A program made the translations under genes and the position numbers. Below the pieces are notes generated by a model. The model searched no databases, was not told the DNA's origin, and saw nothing but the letters and a program-made list of their open reading frames with translations. A stretch of DNA of 64,000 bases from an uncultured Eubacteriales bacterium (lineage in GTDB: Bacteria; Bacillota; Clostridia; Christensenellales; Aristaeellaceae), in the NCBI GenBank assembly GCA_902777335.1, contig CACYTF010000006.1, forward strand, positions 1 to 64,000, written 5' to 3'. Positions 6,131 through 33,885 of this stretch are shown here, in pieces (the first letter of the stretch is position 1; each line of letters opens with the position of its first letter).

Positions 6131-7123
6131 ATGGCATATCCAAAGCCTTTATCAGAGAAATCCCTTGCCAGGTTATACTAGCAGTCCGGCCTTTCAAAGG
6201 AGCAATCCGAATATCTCCACAGTCTGTTTCAGGCATGTGCAAATCTCTATGGCGCGGTGCAACTCCGCGTGGTGTGGGATGTTTATCAGGCGCAGACCGA
6301 AGCTCCAAAGCTCCGGAGAAAAGATATAATATCTTTTTCAGAGATCGCGCGCAGGGAAACGCTCCCTTATTACATCTTTGAGATTGACGAACTCTATTCA
6401 GAAGAAAAGCGAGCGGATCTGAGCCGGGAGATTGTTTCAAAGGCACTGGTGGGCCATGGCTATGGAAGGCTTACCCGCTATTACCGCCTGATGGAATCAT
6501 TGGGCCAGGAGCCCTATTATATCCCGGGAGACATCCTCCCGTTCGCATCGCAACAGCCGTCAAAAGAGGAAACAAAGTTGCTGACTTTTCTGAACGAGTT
6601 GACGGTAACCGCGGACCAATGCCGCCCGCGGTATGGCGATCCGTATCCCTGTGAAAACCGTGGAAAGCGCTTGAAAGAATTCTCCTTTCTGAACCGCGAT
6701 GAACGTTTCGAGGAGGAGTATCTGGCAAAAAATCACGGAGCCCTGCTGAGCTTCAGGGAGAGCGTTGCGGGGACGGAAGCCGAGAAAATCCTCCACCAGT
6801 ATTGCTGCAATGAAAACATTGACTCCCTTGGATTCAACGACCATCTCAAAAACATATTGGAAGAACTGAAGGAGGTTGGCGTTGAGCTGTCAAAGCGACA
6901 GGCACAGGAACTTATTCACCTGCTCACGGACTACCACAACATTTTCCACCTGTGGTGTATGTACGGATGGGCACCCTCGGATCTGGCTCGGCAGTATCAG
7001 CCCTCTAAGACGACGAGCATCTCCTTTGGTCCGAATATGCTGAAAATGTATGCGGATGGAACGATGGACAGGAACGAGATTGTCAGGGAACTTCAAAAAA
7101 TGGGTGTGGACATTTCGGAATAA
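6131..7123 (+). pseudogene. Uncharacterised 330-codon gene interrupted by one amber codon
   Basis: ATG at 6131 follows GAAAGGG (9-nt spacing). The frame reads MAYPKPLSEKSLARLY, meets TAG at 6179-6181, and then continues without another stop through QSGLSKEQSEYLHSLFQACANLYG to 7123. The sequence on both sides of the TAG reads as one continuous protein, so this is a recent nonsense mutation, a sequencing error or a readthrough site. An internal ATG at 6257 would give 288 aa but lacks a good SD. The protein is soluble and charged, with no recognised catalytic motif. It sits between the small conserved protein and the recombinase, 16 nt before the latter. Confidence 0.62.
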
Positions 7124-7139
7124 CACGTGGGGTGACAAT

Positions 7140-8138
7140 ATGCCTGACAAAAAAGTCAGAGTGGTCTATCAGCCTCCCTCAATACCTCCGCTCTATAAGC
7201 AGGTGGGCATCTATGCCCGCGTGAGCACCCGCAGTCCCGAGCAGATGAACAGCCTGGCCGCGCAGGTCTCTGAACTGGTCAGGATGTTCAGGGCCGATTA
7301 CACCGCCCGGATATATGATGTGTATATCGATATCGTGAGTGGTGCTCGCACTGGAAACCGCCCCGCATACCAGCGCATGCCCGATGACTGCCGGAACAGA
7401 AAGCTTGACCTCATCGTTTGCAAGAGCATTAGCCGGTTCGGGCGAAATACTGAGGAAATGCTGGTCAGCTTGAGAGAGATCAAGGCTTGTGGCGTGAATG
7501 TCTTTTTCCAGTTGGAAAACCTCAATACCGCTGATTCTTCCTCTGAACATATCCTCACGGTCATTGAGGCATTCTATCAGGCAGAGAATCAGGCTCGCAG
7601 CGATAACATCAAATTGAGTCTGCGGAACAGCGCCGCGACCGGTAAATCGAAAAACTACACTCGCCCCTGTTATGGCCTTCAGAGGGATGAACATGGTGAA
7701 CTGGCTGTCAATGAAGATGATGCCGCCAATATTCAGCTCATCTTCGACGCTTATCTCCAGGGAGCCACAATCAAGCAGATCGTCGACCTGTTGCAAGAAC
7801 TGCGTATTCCTTCCCCCACCGGCAGGGAGAAATGGTGTCAGAAATCGATAGACGATATTCTCAGCAATGAAAAATACGTCGGGGACGTCATTCTAATGAA
7901 AACGATCCGAATTGGCGGTCCAGGATCGAAGCGAATAAAGAACCGCGGAGAGGCGGCACAATACAAGGCCACTGCATCCCATCAGGCGATTATCACACGA
8001 GAGCAGTTTGAAGCTGCCCAGAGAGAAAGAGAACGCCGTTGCAATGTTGAGGGCAATGGGGCGCAAAGGGTTCGGAAGAGCACACGATATAAATCTACAT
8101 TTAGCATAGACAGATTTCTTTCTGCAAAAGAGGAATAG
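7140..8138 (+). CDS. Site-specific serine recombinase (short, no zinc ribbon)
   Basis: A 332-aa resolvase/invertase-type recombinase. The N-terminal catalytic domain has YARVSTRSPEQMNSLAAQ (Ser nucleophile in RVST) and KSISRFGRN (catalytic Arg region). The PF07508-like recombinase domain follows (GLQRDEHGEL, then IPSPTGREKW and LSNEKYVGDV). Large serine recombinases usually run to 450-550 aa with a zinc ribbon and coiled coil. This one ends soon after the recombinase domain and has no CxxC pair, so it is a short family member or truncated. The frame extends to 7050, but the ATG at 7140 has GGGGTGA 4 nt upstream. It is the only mobility gene between the two 277-bp repeats and the natural candidate for moving the module. 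Confidence 0.85.
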   Translation: MPDKKVRVVYQPPSIPPLYKQVGIYARVSTRSPEQMNSLAAQVSELVRMFRADYTARIYDVYIDIVSGARTGNRPAYQRMPDDCRNRKLDLIVCKSISRFGRNTEEMLVSLREIKACGVNVFFQLENLNTADSSSEHILTVIEAFYQAENQARSDNIKLSLRNSAATGKSKNYTRPCYGLQRDEHGELAVNEDDAANIQLIFDAYLQGATIKQIVDLLQELRIPSPTGREKWCQKSIDDILSNEKYVGDVILMKTIRIGGPGSKRIKNRGEAAQYKATASHQAIITREQFEAAQRERERRCNVEGNGAQRVRKSTRYKSTFSIDRFLSAKEE

Positions 8139-8471: not shown

Positions 8472-8551
8472 TGCGGTCGACGGGACTTGAACCCGTACGG
8501 TCTCCCACACGCCCCTCAAACGTGCGCGTATGCCTATTCCGCCACGACCGC
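8472..8551 (-). tRNA. tRNA-Leu (anticodon GAG)
   Basis: The cloverleaf reads on the minus strand. The 7-bp acceptor stem is GCGGTCG/CGACCGC with discriminator A. The D arm has a GG in its loop. The anticodon stem is CACGT/GCGTG with loop TTGAGGG (anticodon GAG). A type-II variable arm follows, then a T arm ACGGG/CCCGT with loop TTCAAGT. CCA is not encoded. The total of 80 nt is slightly short for tRNA-Leu because the variable arm is small. It has its own consensus promoter and terminator. The 277-bp repeat begins immediately at its 3' side. Confidence 0.9.
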
Positions 8552-8718: not shown

Positions 8719-8745
8719 GACTAACCCCCGATAATAGGATAGAAT
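8717..8745 (+). promoter_or_regulatory. Promoter of the beta-mannosidase gene
   Basis: TTGACT (8717-8722), 17-nt spacer, TAGAAT (8740-8745). It overlaps the last heptamer unit, so copy-number change of the array could alter the sequence just upstream of -35. Confidence 0.6.
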
Positions 8746-8785
8746 GAAGCCACAACGGTCAATACACCTCAGGAGGTTGAATGCC

Positions 8786-11242
8786 ATGAAGAAGCTGTCC
8801 CTGAACGGTGCCTGGACGCTGAGCGTGTCCGGCGGCGAGTTTGGGTCCGTGCCCGCAACGGTGCCCGGCTCGGTATACAACGACCTGCTGGCCGCGGGCA
8901 AGATTCCCGACCCCTTTTACCGCGACAACGAGAACGAAGCGCTGAAGCTGATGGAGCACGACTTCACCTATACGAGGGAATTCGAGGTCCCGGAGGACCT
9001 GCCGGAATGCGACGCGGTGCTGCTGCGCTGCGAGGGGCTGGACACGCTGGCGGAAATCTCCGTGAACGGCCGCGCGGTGGGCCGCGCCGACAACATGCAC
9101 CGCACCTGGGAATATGACGTGAAGGGCGCGCTGAAGCCCGGCGCGAACAGCATCTGCGTGGTGCTGCGCTCCCCCACGAAGTTCATCCGCGAGGCCTATG
9201 AGAAGGACCCCTGCGACGGCTCCACCGACGCGATGCGGGGCTTCCCCCACCTGCGCAAGGCCCACTGCATGTTCGGCTGGGACTGGGGCCCCAGGCTGCC
9301 CGACGCGGGCATCTGGCGGGACATCGGCCTGATCGGCGTGGAGCGGGCGCGGCTTTCGGATGTGCGCGTACGTCAGGAGCACCGCGGCGACGGCACGGTG
9401 GGCGTGACCGTCGGCGCGGACGTGGAGAACCTGGACCTGGACGGCGCGAGCTACGACTTTGAGGTCACGCTGACCGCTCCGGACGGCAGGGTCATGACGG
9501 CCACAGAGCGCTGTACGGTCGCGGCCCGGGTGGCGCTGAACGTGGAGCGGCCCCGGCTGTGGTGGCCCAACGGCTACGGCGACCAGCCGCTGTACACGGT
9601 GACGGCGCGCCTTCTGAAGAACGGCGCGGAGCTGGACCGCTGGGAGAAGCGCATCGGCCTCAGGTCGCTGACCGTCAAGCGCCAGAAGGACCAGTGGGGC
9701 GAGAGCTTCTGCCACCAGGTGAACGGCGTGTCCGTGTTCGCGATGGGCGCGGATTACATCCCCGAGGACAACCTGCTGGCCCGGGTGACGCCCGAGCGCA
9801 CCCGCCGGCTGCTGGAGGATGCCAAGGCGGCCCACATGAACCTGATCCGCGTGTGGGGCGGCGGCTACTACCCGGACGACTGGTTCTACGACGCCTGCGA
9901 CGAGCTGGGCCTGATGGTCTGGCAGGACTTCATGTTTGCCTGCGCGGCCTACCGGCTGACGGAGGCCTTCGAGGCGAACCTGCGGGCGGAGTTCACCGAC
10001 AACATCCGCCGGCTGCGCCACCACGCGAGCCTGGCGCTGTGGTGCGGCAACAACGAGATGGAGGGCTTCATCGGCGCGGGCCTGTGGGTCATCGACAAGC
10101 GCCAGCAGGCCGACTACATCAAGCTGTTCGAGTACATCATTCCAAAGCTGCTTAAGGCCGAAGACCCGGACACCTTCTACTGGCCCTCCAGCCCGTCCAG
10201 CGGCGGCAGCTTCGACAAGCCCCATGACCCGGACCGGGGCGACGTGCACTACTGGGACGTGTGGCACGGCATGAAGCCCTTCTCCGACTACCGGAACCAC
10301 CTGTTCAGGTACGTGTCGGAGTTCGGCTTCCAGTCGTTCCCCTGCATGGAGACCATCGACAGCTTCACCCGGCCCGAGGAGCGCAACGTGTTCTCCTACG
10401 TGATGGAGAAGCACCAGCGCAACGCCTCGGCCAACGGCAAGATCGCCGAGTACCTGTCCCAGACCTATCTGTACCCGTCCACGCTGGACGCCTTCGTGTA
10501 CGCCTCGCAGCTGCTGCAGGCCCAGGCCATGCAGTACGGCGTGGAGCACTGGCGGCGCAACCGCGGCCGCTGCATGGGCGCGGTGGTGTGGCAGCTGAAC
10601 GACTGCTGGCCGGTGGTCAGCTGGGCCAGCATCGACTACTACGGCCGCTGGAAGGCGCTGCACTACTACGAGAAGCGCTTCTTCGCGCCGGTGCTCGTCT
10701 CCTGCCACGAGGAGGGCGTGCTCAGCCAGAACACCAACGTGAACGCCGAGCCCTTCCCGCTGAAGAAGTCCGCCCGGCTGAATGTGTCCAACGAGACCAT
10801 GAACCCCTTCACGGGCGTGGTGAACTGGTCGCTGCGCCGGCCCGACGCCACGGTGATCCGCGAGGGCATGTTCCACGTGAAGGTGCCCGCGCTGAGCGCC
10901 GTGTGGCTTGAGCGGCAGGACTTCTCGGGCGAGGACACCTACGGCTGCTACTACGCCTACGAGCTGTGGTCCGAGGGCGGCGCTTACGTGGGCGGCGGCA
11001 CGGCCCTGTTCTGCCCGCCGAAGCACTTCCGGTTCAAGGACCCGAAGCTGCACGCCCACCTGGAGGACGACGAGATCGTCGTCACCGCGAAGGCCTACGC
11101 CCGCAGCGTGGAGATCCGCTGCGGCGCGGACGTGCTGCTGGAGGACAACTTCTTCGATATGAACGCCGGCACGCGCCGCGTAAAGGTGCTGCGCGGCAAG
11201 CCGGGGGAAATCAGGGTGCGGAGCGTGTACGACATACGGTGA
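8786..11242 (+). CDS. GH2 beta-mannosidase
   Basis: An 818-aa cytoplasmic glycoside hydrolase (no signal peptide) that releases mannose from the non-reducing end of beta-mannosides. The layout is a jelly-roll sugar-binding domain at the N-terminus (LSLNGAWTLSV...PGSVYNDL, with FGWDWGPRLP), beta-sandwich domains, a TIM barrel from about residue 300, and C-terminal beta domains. GNNEMEG (about residue 424) carries the acid/base Glu and SEFGFQSFP (about 511) the nucleophile Glu. Length fits the beta-mannosidase branch of GH2. The ATG at 8786 is chosen because AGGAGG lies 9 nt upstream. An importer operon and other glycosidases follow, suggesting intracellular cleavage of imported manno-oligosaccharides. 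Confidence 0.93.
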   Translation: MKKLSLNGAWTLSVSGGEFGSVPATVPGSVYNDLLAAGKIPDPFYRDNENEALKLMEHDFTYTREFEVPEDLPECDAVLLRCEGLDTLAEISVNGRAVGRADNMHRTWEYDVKGALKPGANSICVVLRSPTKFIREAYEKDPCDGSTDAMRGFPHLRKAHCMFGWDWGPRLPDAGIWRDIGLIGVERARLSDVRVRQEHRGDGTVGVTVGADVENLDLDGASYDFEVTLTAPDGRVMTATERCTVAARVALNVERPRLWWPNGYGDQPLYTVTARLLKNGAELDRWEKRIGLRSLTVKRQKDQWGESFCHQVNGVSVFAMGADYIPEDNLLARVTPERTRRLLEDAKAAHMNLIRVWGGGYYPDDWFYDACDELGLMVWQDFMFACAAYRLTEAFEANLRAEFTDNIRRLRHHASLALWCGNNEMEGFIGAGLWVIDKRQQADYIKLFEYIIPKLLKAEDPDTFYWPSSPSSGGSFDKPHDPDRGDVHYWDVWHGMKPFSDYRNHLFRYVSEFGFQSFPCMETIDSFTRPEERNVFSYVMEKHQRNASANGKIAEYLSQTYLYPSTLDAFVYASQLLQAQAMQYGVEHWRRNRGRCMGAVVWQLNDCWPVVSWASIDYYGRWKALHYYEKRFFAPVLVSCHEEGVLSQNTNVNAEPFPLKKSARLNVSNETMNPFTGVVNWSLRRPDATVIREGMFHVKVPALSAVWLERQDFSGEDTYGCYYAYELWSEGGAYVGGGTALFCPPKHFRFKDPKLHAHLEDDEIVVTAKAYARSVEIRCGADVLLEDNFFDMNAGTRRVKVLRGKPGEIRVRSVYDIR

Positions 11243-11250
11243 CGGGGGTA

Positions 11251-11279
11251 TTGACAGGGGCGGGGATTTGCTCTATAAT
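11251..11279 (+). promoter_or_regulatory. Consensus promoter of a candidate antisense RNA
   Basis: TTGACA (11251-11256), 17 nt, TATAAT (11274-11279). It is a perfect consensus with no ORF downstream on this strand before a terminator at 11355-11380. Confidence 0.8.
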
Positions 11280-11285
11280 AGAAAC

Positions 11286-11386
11286 GAAGGGCGGACCACG
11301 CACGCGGTTGCTCCTCAAGCTATGACCGAGTTGTGATTGTCAAATCACGAAAACAGCCGTCACTTGGCAGAGTGGCGGTTGCTTTT
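11286..11386 (+). ncRNA. Candidate antitoxin RNA (convergent, about 100 nt)
   Basis: Predicted transcript from the promoter at 11251-11279 to the terminator at 11355-11380. It has no credible ORF. Features are GCGGTTGCTCCT at 11304-11315, a GTGATT/AATCAC hairpin at about 11333-11348, and the shared terminator. Its last 30 nt are fully complementary to the 3' end of the minus-strand mRNA at 11360-11449. Its 5' GCGGTTGCT is also complementary to AGCAACCGC near the 3' end of that mRNA. This is the arrangement of convergent type I antitoxin RNAs such as those of par, txpA/ratA and bsrG/SR4. Confidence 0.5.
11355..11380. terminator. Shared bidirectional terminator of the candidate type I locus
   Basis: AGCCGTCACT (11355-11364) pairs with AGTGGCGGTT (11371-11380), 10 bp including wobbles, around a 6-nt loop. 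GCTTTTC follows on the plus strand and GTTTTCG on the minus strand, so it can end both convergent transcripts. The small ORF stops inside it. Confidence 0.65.
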
Positions 11387-11449
11387 CATCTTGAGTCTTC
11401 GCACACAAACCGTGATTGAAAACCTTCCGATGTGGAATGTAATTCGCAT
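11360..11449 (-). CDS. Candidate type I toxin, 29-aa basic peptide
   Basis: ATG at 11449, TGA at 11360. The peptide starts MRITFHIGRFSITVCVRR and ends SNRHSAK. It is short, alternating hydrophobic/basic at the N-terminus, and strongly cationic overall. AAGGAGGT lies 7 nt upstream, so it is very likely translated. A promoter TTGACA-N17-TACAAT at 11529-11557 gives a leader of about 70 nt. The SD is buried in a GAAA-capped hairpin. The 5' GGCGGTTGCT can pair with AGCAACCGCC at the mRNA 3' end, a 5'-3' lock typical of type I toxin mRNAs. I do not recognise the peptide family with certainty; a small regulatory or structural peptide is the alternative. Confidence 0.55.
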   Translation of the reverse strand: MRITFHIGRFSITVCVRRLKMKSNRHSAK

Positions 11450-11454
11450 TCCCC

Positions 11455-11472
11455 CACCTCCTTTCGGAGATG
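11455..11472 (-). promoter_or_regulatory. SD-sequestering hairpin in the small-peptide mRNA
   Basis: On the minus strand CATCTCC pairs with GGAGGTG (one wobble) around a GAAA tetraloop. The GGAGG of the SD is inside the stem, so ribosome access would need opening or processing. Confidence 0.6.
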
Positions 11473-11528
11473 TAGGAGCAACCGCCTGCGCGTTTGTTGT
11501 TCGCCCTTCGGCCCTTGCGGGCAGTTCC

Positions 11529-11557
11529 ATTGTAGCGCGTAATCCCCGGCATGTCAA
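11529..11557 (-). promoter_or_regulatory. Promoter of the small-peptide mRNA
   Basis: On the minus strand TTGACA (11552-11557), 17 nt, TACAAT (11529-11534). It lies immediately downstream of the terminator hairpin of the opp operon. Confidence 0.75.
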
Positions 11558-11589
11558 GGGGCGGCCAAATCGTTGGATTTGGCCGCCCC
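11558..11589 (-). terminator. Terminator hairpin of the opp-type operon
   Basis: GGGGCGGCCAAATC and GATTTGGCCGCCCC form a perfect 14-bp stem around a 4-nt loop, 23 nt after the oppA stop. A U-tract is missing on the minus strand, so termination may be partial. Confidence 0.6.
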
Positions 11590-11611
11590 AATGCGTTCAT
11601 TCGGCTTCCGA

Positions 11612-13213
11612 TTACTTGGTCGCGTTCATGAACAGCTTCTCGCCGGTGGGATACTGGGTCACGCCGTTGATCTCGGGGACGCAGATCCAGGTGGTGGCGT
11701 AGTAGTACACCGGGATGCAGCAGGCTTCGTCGCCCACGGCCAGCTTCTCAGCCTCGTGCATCAGGGCGAAGTGCTCGTGCAGATCGGTGGTGGCCGCGGC
11801 CTGCTCCATCAGCTTGTCGAAGTCGGGGTTGCTGTAGAAGGTGGAGTTGTTGCCGGAATAGCTGGTGAACAGGTCCAGCAGGTTGCTGGGATCGCCGTAG
11901 TCAGCCACCCAGCCGTCGCGGGCCAGGGTGTGCTCGCCGTTGCGGCGGGCAGCCAGGAACACGTTCCACTCCATCTGAGCGATCTCGACGTTCACGCCCA
12001 GGTTATCCTTCCACATGGCCTGCAGGGCCTCAGCGGTGGGCAGATGCACGCCGGAGACGTTGGTGCAGTACTCGACGGTGGGGAAGCCCTCGCCGTTCGG
12101 ATAGCCGGCCTCGGCCATCAGCTCCTGGGCCTTCTTGATGTTGGCCTCATAGTCGCTGCGGTCGATCACGGTGTCGAAATCGCCGAAGTCGCTGCCGTCG
12201 TCCGCCACAAAGCCGTTGCCGACGAAGTCGGTCGCGGGCAGGTAGGTGCCCTGGGTGACCGTCTCGGACAGGTAGTAGGGATCGATGGCCAGCTGGAAGG
12301 CCTTGCGGACGCGGGCGTCCGTGAAGGGCTCCTTGGTGTTGTTGATGTTCACGTAGTAGGTGCCCAGCTGGGGAGAGGTGTGGAACAGGCCCTCGGCCTG
12401 CAGGCTGGCCAGCTCCTCGGTGGGATAGTCGTCGCACCAGTCCAGCTCACCGGCGCGCATGGCGGCCAGCTTGGCGTTGGGATCGGTGATCAGCTTCCAG
12501 CAGATGCGCTTGCAGGCCAGCTTGTCCACGTCGTAGTAGTTCTGGTTGGGCACCATGACGATCTCCTCGTCCATGGTGTAGCTCTCCAGCGTGTACGGGC
12601 CGTTGCCGATCAGGGTCTCCGGGCTGGTGGCCCAGGCGTCGCCGTTGGCCTCGACGATGTCCTTGCGGACGGGATAGTAGGTCGGGAAGGCCATGATCTC
12701 CAGGAACCAGGCGCAGGGCTGGACCAGGGTGAGCTCGATGGTCTTGCTGTCGATGACCTTCACGCCCAGCTCGTCCACGGGCTTCTCGCCGGTGGAGATC
12801 TCCAGGCCGTTCAGCAGGTACTTGCCCATGTCGCCCGCGTAGGGAGCGGCGGTGGCGGGATCCACCAGGCGCTTCATGGTGTACTCGAAGTCCTCGGCGG
12901 TCAGGTCCTGTCCGTCGGACCACTTGGCTTCGGGACGGATGTGGAAGGTGTAGACCAGGCCGTCGTCGCTGACCTCATAGGATTCGGCGGCGCCCAGCAC
13001 GATGCCCTCGCCGTTCCAGTCGTACTTCATCAGGCCCTCGAACAGGTGCTTGATGTAGTTGGAGCCGTCGGAGGCGGAGTTCAGCTGCGGATCCAGCGTC
13101 TCGGGCTGAGAGCCGATGCAGGCGTTGATGGTCTGCACTTCCTCAGCGGAAGCCACAACGGCCAGAGACAGGGCCAGCGCCAGCGCCAGCACAAGTGCAA
13201 AGAGTTTCTTCAC
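11612..13213 (-). CDS. oppA: ABC transporter substrate-binding protein, family 5 (OppA/DppA type)
   Basis: A 533-aa SBP_bac_5 protein that captures ligand outside the membrane for the OppBCDF importer. The N-terminal signal peptide (MKKLFALVLALALALSLA, then VVASAEE) ends in an Ala-x-Ala type site with no lipobox Cys, unlike most Gram-positive binding proteins. The mature part begins with the family's QPETLDPQLN segment. GTG start at 13213 with AAAGGAGG upstream. It is the last gene of oppBCDFA and is followed by a hairpin. Family 5 proteins bind peptides, nickel or oligosaccharides. With GH2 mannosidase on one side and GH42 galactosidase on the other, a beta-linked oligosaccharide is plausible but unproven. 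Confidence 0.88.
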   Translation of the reverse strand: MKKLFALVLALALALSLAVVASAEEVQTINACIGSQPETLDPQLNSASDGSNYIKHLFEGLMKYDWNGEGIVLGAAESYEVSDDGLVYTFHIRPEAKWSDGQDLTAEDFEYTMKRLVDPATAAPYAGDMGKYLLNGLEISTGEKPVDELGVKVIDSKTIELTLVQPCAWFLEIMAFPTYYPVRKDIVEANGDAWATSPETLIGNGPYTLESYTMDEEIVMVPNQNYYDVDKLACKRICWKLITDPNAKLAAMRAGELDWCDDYPTEELASLQAEGLFHTSPQLGTYYVNINNTKEPFTDARVRKAFQLAIDPYYLSETVTQGTYLPATDFVGNGFVADDGSDFGDFDTVIDRSDYEANIKKAQELMAEAGYPNGEGFPTVEYCTNVSGVHLPTAEALQAMWKDNLGVNVEIAQMEWNVFLAARRNGEHTLARDGWVADYGDPSNLLDLFTSYSGNNSTFYSNPDFDKLMEQAAATTDLHEHFALMHEAEKLAVGDEACCIPVYYYATTWICVPEINGVTQYPTGEKLFMNATK

Positions 13214-33730: not shown

Positions 33731-33878
33731 AAAGAAAATCCCACATGCTCTCACATGCGGGAAACGGAGTGCCCCATTCGGTGGCGTTCCGCTTCCCTAC
33801 GGTGGGATTATCCACTTCAGGTTCCAAGGGACCGGGCGGTCTACGCCCATCTCAGCCTTTCGGCGCCCCCAGCGGTTG
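33731..33878 (-). promoter_or_regulatory. TPP riboswitch (THI element) with terminator upstream of thiT
   Basis: On the minus strand the aptamer shows GGGGCGCCGAAAGGCTGAGA, later CCTTGGAACCTGA and GGATAATCCCACCGTAGGGAA: the conserved THI-box blocks. A terminator follows at 33740-33761 (CCCGCATG/CATGTGGG, then ATTTTCTTT). TPP binding should favour termination and lower thiT expression. Confidence 0.93.
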
Positions 33879-33885
33879 TGAAAAC

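Follow-up and report, generated by a model that had tools for sequence, protein, structure and literature searches.

Does a 307-bp cassette lying between two genes of an uncultured Eubacteriales bacterium constitute a type I toxin-antitoxin module and, if so, what keeps its mRNA from being translated? The question was raised by a preliminary description of this DNA, which proposed a short cationic peptide, an opposing RNA and an interaction between the two ends of the peptide's mRNA. We examined these proposals in the window, i.e., the whole stretch of 64,000 nucleotides, and in related genomes.

The cassette, its promoters and its relatives

The proposed locus is indeed found at 11251-11557, and two of its details, the terminator and the partner in the mRNA lock, have to be corrected (see below). 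The cassette is not assigned to a strand as a whole, and its ends are two outward -35 boxes (TTGACA ... TGTCAA). Its neighbours are the end of a beta-mannosidase gene (8744-11242, plus strand) and an oligopeptide-binding protein gene (11612-13213, minus strand). Within 3 kb there are exactly two promoter-like sites, where 0.3 would be expected, and both belong to the cassette. One is the consensus promoter that had been assigned to the 29-aa ORF; it is located on the minus strand, is read from 11557 to 11529 (TTGACA-17-TACAAT) and matches the consensus at 11 of 12 positions. The other, which had been called a perfect opposing promoter, is on the plus strand (TTGACA-17-TATAAT, 11251-11279) and does match at all 12 positions. 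These two promoters face each other, i.e., they are convergent. It is important to note that the opposing promoter is known only as a promoter sequence, and that transcription from it is inferred. On the minus strand, the order of elements is a 5'-terminal hairpin, an element that we call E, a hairpin containing the Shine-Dalgarno (SD) sequence and the 29-aa ORF.

Other features of the window are recorded here as separate observations. A long perfect palindrome (GGGGCGGCCAAATC...GATTTGGCCGCCCC, 11558-11591) is immediately to the right of the cassette and is single-copy here; it also follows two different beta-mannosidase 3' ends in genome G023 (L116 and L117). Together with a further G023 locus (L094), these are near-identical beta-mannosidase 3' fragments; they lie on short contigs, the genes downstream of them differ, and they reflect either a repeat family or an assembly break. 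A resolvase/recombinase-like ORF (7050-8138, plus strand) near a tRNA gene (8472-8551, minus strand) suggests that an integrated element has its edge a short way upstream of the beta-mannosidase gene. The window additionally contains a TPP riboswitch (33777-33880, minus strand, 76.5 bits).

A search of genomes for short ORFs resembling MRITFHIGRF and having the same layout had been suggested as a check, and this search returned dozens of copies. The bacterium's own genome has three recognizable copies of the peptide (two besides that of the window), and about 32 more are present in relatives. Using a profile, we found the peptide in 47 of 300 genomes of the taxonomic family, with up to seven copies in each, sometimes in tandem. 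A scan of named genomes gave 37 loci, most of which are labelled as rumen Clostridia MAGs and some as Lachnospiraceae, and contigs from viral collections added eight more. Vescimonas fastidiosa, a cultured human isolate, also has intergenic copies, which are unannotated. The plasmid collection contributed a single record, Vescimonas pMM35_01, which bears gyrA/gyrB and other chromosomal genes. No match to the cassette family was present in the phage collection, and a class-wide search found no copy in 390 other genomes. There was no credible match in Pfam, NCBIfam, PADLOC, PHROGs, PDB or Rfam, and six characteristic peptide strings retrieved nothing from the literature that was searched. A hit to the Rfam family STnc240 at 11315-11390 was discarded as being at chance level (25 bits against a gathering threshold of 55, E-value 0.15).

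We analyzed 65 distinct cassettes, which derive from the window's taxonomic family, other rumen Clostridia, Lachnospiraceae and Vescimonas, and whose flanks are unrelated. Two convergent near-consensus promoters, the SD hairpin and the layout are kept in nearly all of them. The sense promoter is good in nearly all cases and lies 62-103 nt upstream of the ATG. The antisense promoter matches the consensus at 10 or more of 12 positions in all 64 peptide-intact cassettes for which the flank is available, and in most of these it matches at all 12. Thus, within the family, the antisense promoter is usually nearer to the consensus than the sense promoter, as would be expected if an antitoxin RNA is made in excess, although this interpretation is an inference.

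It might be argued that promoters and hairpins have merely come together by chance in intergenic DNA that holds no functional unit. Beyond the missing expression data, we see nothing to recommend this argument, and it is refuted by the dozens of independent copies that keep every part on unrelated flanks; we assign it a negligible probability. Conserved flanks around a non-conserved ORF would have counted against the original proposal, and what we observe is the opposite, a conserved ORF between flanks that are not conserved.

Inferred transcript ends and the predicted pairing between them

The plus-strand promoter would produce an ORF-less RNA of about 105-110 nt (11284-11391, plus strand) that lies wholly within the 3' half of the mRNA; here again, transcription is inferred. 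The terminator of this antisense RNA, a hairpin (11354-11381) with its T-tract (together 11354-11391, plus strand), is encoded in the final codons of the ORF. Another hairpin, GTGATT-...-AATCAC (11333-11348, plus strand), separates this terminator from the antisense 5' element; its arms vary by locus with their pairing kept, and it is absent from the Lachnospiraceae and Vescimonas types. One Lachnospiraceae locus (L052, RUG306) has a tandem pair of antisense units downstream of one peptide gene.

The two RNAs had been thought to end at a shared bidirectional terminator. Our data indicate instead that the terminator is polar and serves mainly the antisense RNA. In every one of the 48 loci tested, the hairpin spanning the stop codon is more stable on the antisense strand than on the mRNA strand (mean -17.7 versus -10.4 kcal/mol), and at least five T's are present in the next 10 nt in 46 of 48 loci on the antisense strand, as compared to 18 of 48 on the mRNA strand. 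Moreover, a U-G pair in the antisense hairpin corresponds to an A-C mismatch in the mRNA, and this is invariant in 30 sequences. Because both hairpin strength and T-tract favour the antisense strand, we rejected a symmetrical bidirectional terminator. From the polarity it follows that the antisense RNA ends at the ORF-end hairpin, and that the mRNA probably reads on.

A candidate for the true mRNA end is an element that we call E' (11285-11316, minus strand), which would form the 3' end of the full-length mRNA. Of 48 loci, 37 have a more stable E' hairpin on the mRNA strand than on the antisense strand, the exceptions being mainly of the Lachnospiraceae and Vescimonas types; a U-rich run, complementary to the antisense -10 region, comes after the hairpin. 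The hairpin and U-rich run are probably the mRNA's terminator, in which case the mRNA would be about 245 nt long here. This 3' end has not been observed; it is inferred from the asymmetry of the hairpin and from the co-evolution described below.

At its 5' end, the mRNA has a hairpin, GCCC-GCAA-GGGC (11511-11522, minus strand), which differs in sequence by locus and is kept as a hairpin; a stabilizing role for it is inferred. Element E (CGAAGGGCGAAC ... GGCGGTTGCTCCT, 11474-11510, minus strand) comes next, and rests on co-evolution and fold prediction. As had been described, the SD (GGAGGTG) is held in a GAAA-capped hairpin, ACATCTCC-GAAA-GGAGGTG (11473-11455, minus strand). This hairpin is kept despite changes in its sequence, e.g., a U-A pair that has become C-G stays paired in 8 of 30 sequences. 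In predicted folds, the SD is paired in 57 of 58 full-length mRNAs and in all 58 truncated ones.

Element E, in the 5' UTR of the mRNA, has its match in the first ~30 nt of the antisense RNA. An mRNA that extends into this region would therefore be able to pair its 3' end (E') with its 5' end. We compared E to the antisense 5' end by local score, which is 33.5 for the same locus and 25.1 for other loci (sd 0.55; 0 of 10,000 permutations). Since the match within a locus so greatly exceeds the match across loci, this pattern is not what an old inverted repeat would yield if its arms had decayed independently. Transitions in E and E' that leave a G-U pair in the mRNA outnumber the reverse by 59:12; however, related loci are not independent, and this ratio should be taken as a tendency and not converted to a p-value. 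Co-variation extends to positions left unpaired in the antisense hairpin (0.85 within loci versus 0.74 across loci), a finding that favours direct E:E' pairing. The intervening loops differ, in contrast to the matching arms of E and E', and this speaks against gene conversion. The E:E' lock is present in the minimum-free-energy fold of 58 of 58 full-length mRNAs, and is worth about 21 kcal/mol in the window's locus.

The preliminary description placed the lock elsewhere: GGCGGTTGCT in the 5' UTR was to pair with the arm AGCAACCGCC at the end of the ORF, with the mRNA ending at the ORF-end hairpin. All of the sequences in question exist, namely GGCGGTTGCT on the minus strand within 11486-11474, AGCAACCGCC near the ORF's 3' end and, as was also claimed, GCGGTTGCT at the 5' end of the antisense RNA. 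Moreover, the general idea that the mRNA's 5' and 3' ends are locked together is upheld by the E:E' co-evolution. What does not stand is the choice of partner. Pairing of the 5' UTR with the ORF end is strong across the family (mean -21.7 versus -15.6 kcal/mol for shuffled UTRs), and the window's mRNA adopts the GGCGGTTGCT:AGCAACCGCC pairing when it is folded in truncated or unlocked form. However, this pairing has no locus-specific co-evolution (-21.67 within loci versus -21.57 across loci, sd 0.26), and the ORF-end hairpin, with its A-C mismatch and poor U-tract, is a weak terminator for the mRNA. We therefore no longer consider the ORF-end arm to be the co-evolving partner, and a lock of this kind is doubtful, without being excluded; the pairing may be an alternative fold that arises after 3' trimming. 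The predicted E:E' interaction is the better-supported 5'-3' lock.

A separate observation concerns locus L071, on a viral contig, in which an R-to-H change in the peptide (NHHSAK) accompanies a change of GGCGG to GGTGG in the 5' UTR that restores the 5' UTR/ORF-end pairing. This is a single compensatory case in favour of the alternative fold.

The peptide and the fate of its gene

The 29-aa ORF, MRITFHIGRFSITVCVRRLKMKSNRHSAK (11360-11449, minus strand), begins with an ATG at 11449 and ends with a stop codon at 11362-11360. It has homologues, and we regard its product as the candidate toxin. For codons 2-17, pN/pS is 0.23, as compared to 0.93 and 1.67 in other frames of the same DNA. In interpreting this value, it is important to consider that the homologues were collected partly by peptide similarity, which lowers pN. 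For this reason, we repeated the calculation with codons 10-17, which are outside of the search pattern, and pN/pS is still 0.35. Codons 18-22 appear to be unconstrained (0.87), and this linker therefore looks free to vary. We conclude that the ORF is a gene under purifying selection.

Peptides of the family have a mean net charge of +5.9 and a mean length of 28.5 aa, and are only weakly hydrophobic (1.4 in the best 14-residue window, versus 2.0 for AapA1). An AlphaFold2 model of a 32-aa homologue, built with 18 sequences, is a beta-hairpin with strands at residues 2-9 and 12-19; pLDDT is about 90 in residues 1-20, and the cationic tail is disordered. A structure model of so short a peptide is not proof. 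Given this model and the weak hydrophobicity, the peptide does not meet the expectation of a hydrophobic alpha-helical transmembrane segment. According to published reviews, the membrane type I toxins characterized to date are alpha-helical (PMC8309996), and the predicted beta-hairpin departs from this usual structural description.

We used a covariance model of the antisense RNA, built without the peptide profile, to find copies whose peptide gene might be damaged. Copies were present in 19 of 28 genomes of the genus, and 44 loci were not cut by a contig end. The peptide gene is usable and the antisense promoter matches at 10 or more positions in 27 of these loci. In 13, the antisense promoter is equally good and the peptide gene is damaged, whether by a frameshift, an insertion, deletion of the 5' half, or loss of the start, stop or promoter. 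Both are damaged in the remaining four. None of these 44 loci of the genus combines a broken antisense promoter with a peptide gene that is intact. The asymmetry has a Fisher p of about 0.02, or 0.016 when 28 loci rather than 27 are counted in the first class, and the count of 13 versus 0 is more telling. In this classification, promoter strength stands in for antisense function. Within the bacterium's own genome, the window's copy (C6) and C1 are intact, C8 lacks its promoter and normal stop, and the peptide gene of C81 is missing its 5' half, with the antisense promoter kept at 12 of 12.

The junction between the beta-mannosidase and binding-protein genes also shows that the unit can be present or absent. 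It is present in G000, G011 and G017, reversed in G024, and absent in G016, G025, G027 and one contig of G023, in which the flanking proteins share 98-99% identity. The empty site retains TGTCAAGGGGCGGCC, the sequence of the unit's right edge, and no target-site duplication is evident at this junction.

Precise presence and absence, outward inverted -35 boxes at the ends of a discrete unit, both orientations at one site, and several copies per genome, including tandem ones, are also what a MITE-like DNA element would exhibit. Its inverted ends (the promoters with E and E') would then serve transposition, and the ORF would be incidental. However, this reading does not account for an ORF under purifying selection, for differences between E and E' that are biased toward G-U in one RNA strand (the 59:12 ratio above), or for matching arms with differing loops, and the lack of a target-site duplication also weighs against it. 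We consider such an element very improbable.

A less remote alternative is that the peptide is regulated by the antisense RNA and is not toxic to its own cell, e.g., that it is a small regulator, a signal or a secreted antimicrobial whose level the antisense RNA merely limits. There are no toxicity data, and both the weak hydrophobicity and the predicted beta-hairpin are atypical of type I toxins. Yet peptide genes often decay beside an intact antisense gene and never the reverse, and a distribution that is patchy, multi-copy and present or absent suits a selfish, addiction-like module better than a physiological regulator. On balance, a non-toxic peptide seems unlikely to us, and a type I module is our preferred reading.

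Known systems and a proposed mechanism

Among Gram-positive bacteria, txpA/RatA, bsrG/SR4 and the type I modules of C. difficile are convergent, with an antisense RNA over the 3' part of the toxin mRNA, and their toxins have a transmembrane domain and are mostly found in prophages. The cassette is like them in being convergent and in the overlap of its antisense RNA with the mRNA's 3' part, and unlike them in that the window's copy is located between ordinary metabolic genes. No sequence similarity to these modules has been reported or found, and we agree with the earlier assessment that the peptide does not look like Fst, TxpA or BsrG. In hok/Sok, pairing of the 5' and 3' ends holds the full-length mRNA inert, and 3' trimming activates it; Hok is a larger membrane protein, and its gene has an overlapping leader ORF. 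The cassette's full-length mRNA is likewise predicted to be locked 5' to 3'; unlike in hok/Sok, its antisense RNA covers the 3' half of the mRNA. No leader ORF like that of hok was identified in the cassette.

The aapA/IsoA systems of Helicobacter and Campylobacter encode a cationic peptide of about 30 aa and have a masked SD and a cis-antisense RNA; a long-distance 5'-3' interaction keeps the primary mRNA inert until its 3' end is processed, and the full-length hok mRNA is likewise inert and needs 3' processing (PMC6733600). The cassette appears to resemble aapA/IsoA in the size and charge of its peptide, the masked SD, the 5'-3' lock and the cis-antisense RNA. However, its peptide is predicted to be a beta-hairpin rather than a helix, its E pairs upstream of an SD that has its own hairpin, and its antisense RNA would begin at the 3' partner of the lock and stop within the ORF. 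By eye, it is tempting to align KISFLG of AapA1 with RITFHIG. We rejected homology between them, because AapA1 scores no better than shuffles against the family profile (of 1888 shuffles, 1249 equal or exceed its score), i.e., there is no detectable homology.

Of the properties expected of a type I system, coding selection on the ORF is met, as is a conserved overlapping antisense gene, the latter by sequence only. An inert primary transcript, with a masked SD, is met as a prediction. Toxicity of the translated peptide has only indirect support, from the one-sided decay of peptide genes. The 5'-3' lock of the hok and aapA type is met by co-evolution and fold prediction, with an inferred mRNA 3' end.

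We propose that the minus-strand promoter would give an mRNA of ~245 nt that carries the 5' hairpin, E, the hidden SD, the 29-aa ORF and, at its 3' end, E'. Pairing of E with E' in the full-length mRNA, together with confinement of the SD in its hairpin, should leave the primary transcript inert. From the analogous cases of hok and aapA, we infer that trimming of the 3' end, or refolding, would unlock the mRNA for translation. The stronger plus-strand promoter would give an antisense RNA of ~105 nt, running from E' into the last codons of the ORF and fully complementary to the mRNA's 3' half. This RNA presumably pairs with new or unlocked mRNA, leading to decay or silencing. We further infer that loss of the antisense RNA would allow the peptide to be made and to inhibit the cell.

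Our computations establish the conservation of the parts, coding selection, co-evolution of the lock, polarity of the terminator, one-sided decay, and presence or absence at a site. The original reading of the locus as a type I candidate is thus supported by conservation, lock co-evolution, purifying selection and one-sided decay, and is not proven. We think it likely that the cassette belongs to an undescribed, hok/AapA-like type I toxin-antitoxin family, with transcription, processing, toxicity and antisense action being inferred. Should the peptide be toxic, the cassette would work in the manner of hok and aapA; it has a layout like that of txpA/RatA and is a detectable homologue of no system tested. 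A more specific proposal is tentative, and we hold it to be possible rather than probable: that the toxin is a cationic beta-hairpin peptide of 25-34 aa that acts unlike helical membrane toxins and nuclease toxins, and that is encoded in a ~300-bp cassette whose antisense terminator is inside the toxin's codons and whose antisense start is the 3' half of the mRNA lock.

To our knowledge, type I systems in rumen and gut Clostridia are little mapped outside of C. difficile. If our interpretation is true, it would add an unnamed type I toxin-antitoxin family for these bacteria. It would also provide an independent instance of mRNA locking in the style of hok and AapA, with natural compensatory variation in dozens of copies, and possibly a toxin fold outside of the membrane-helix rule.
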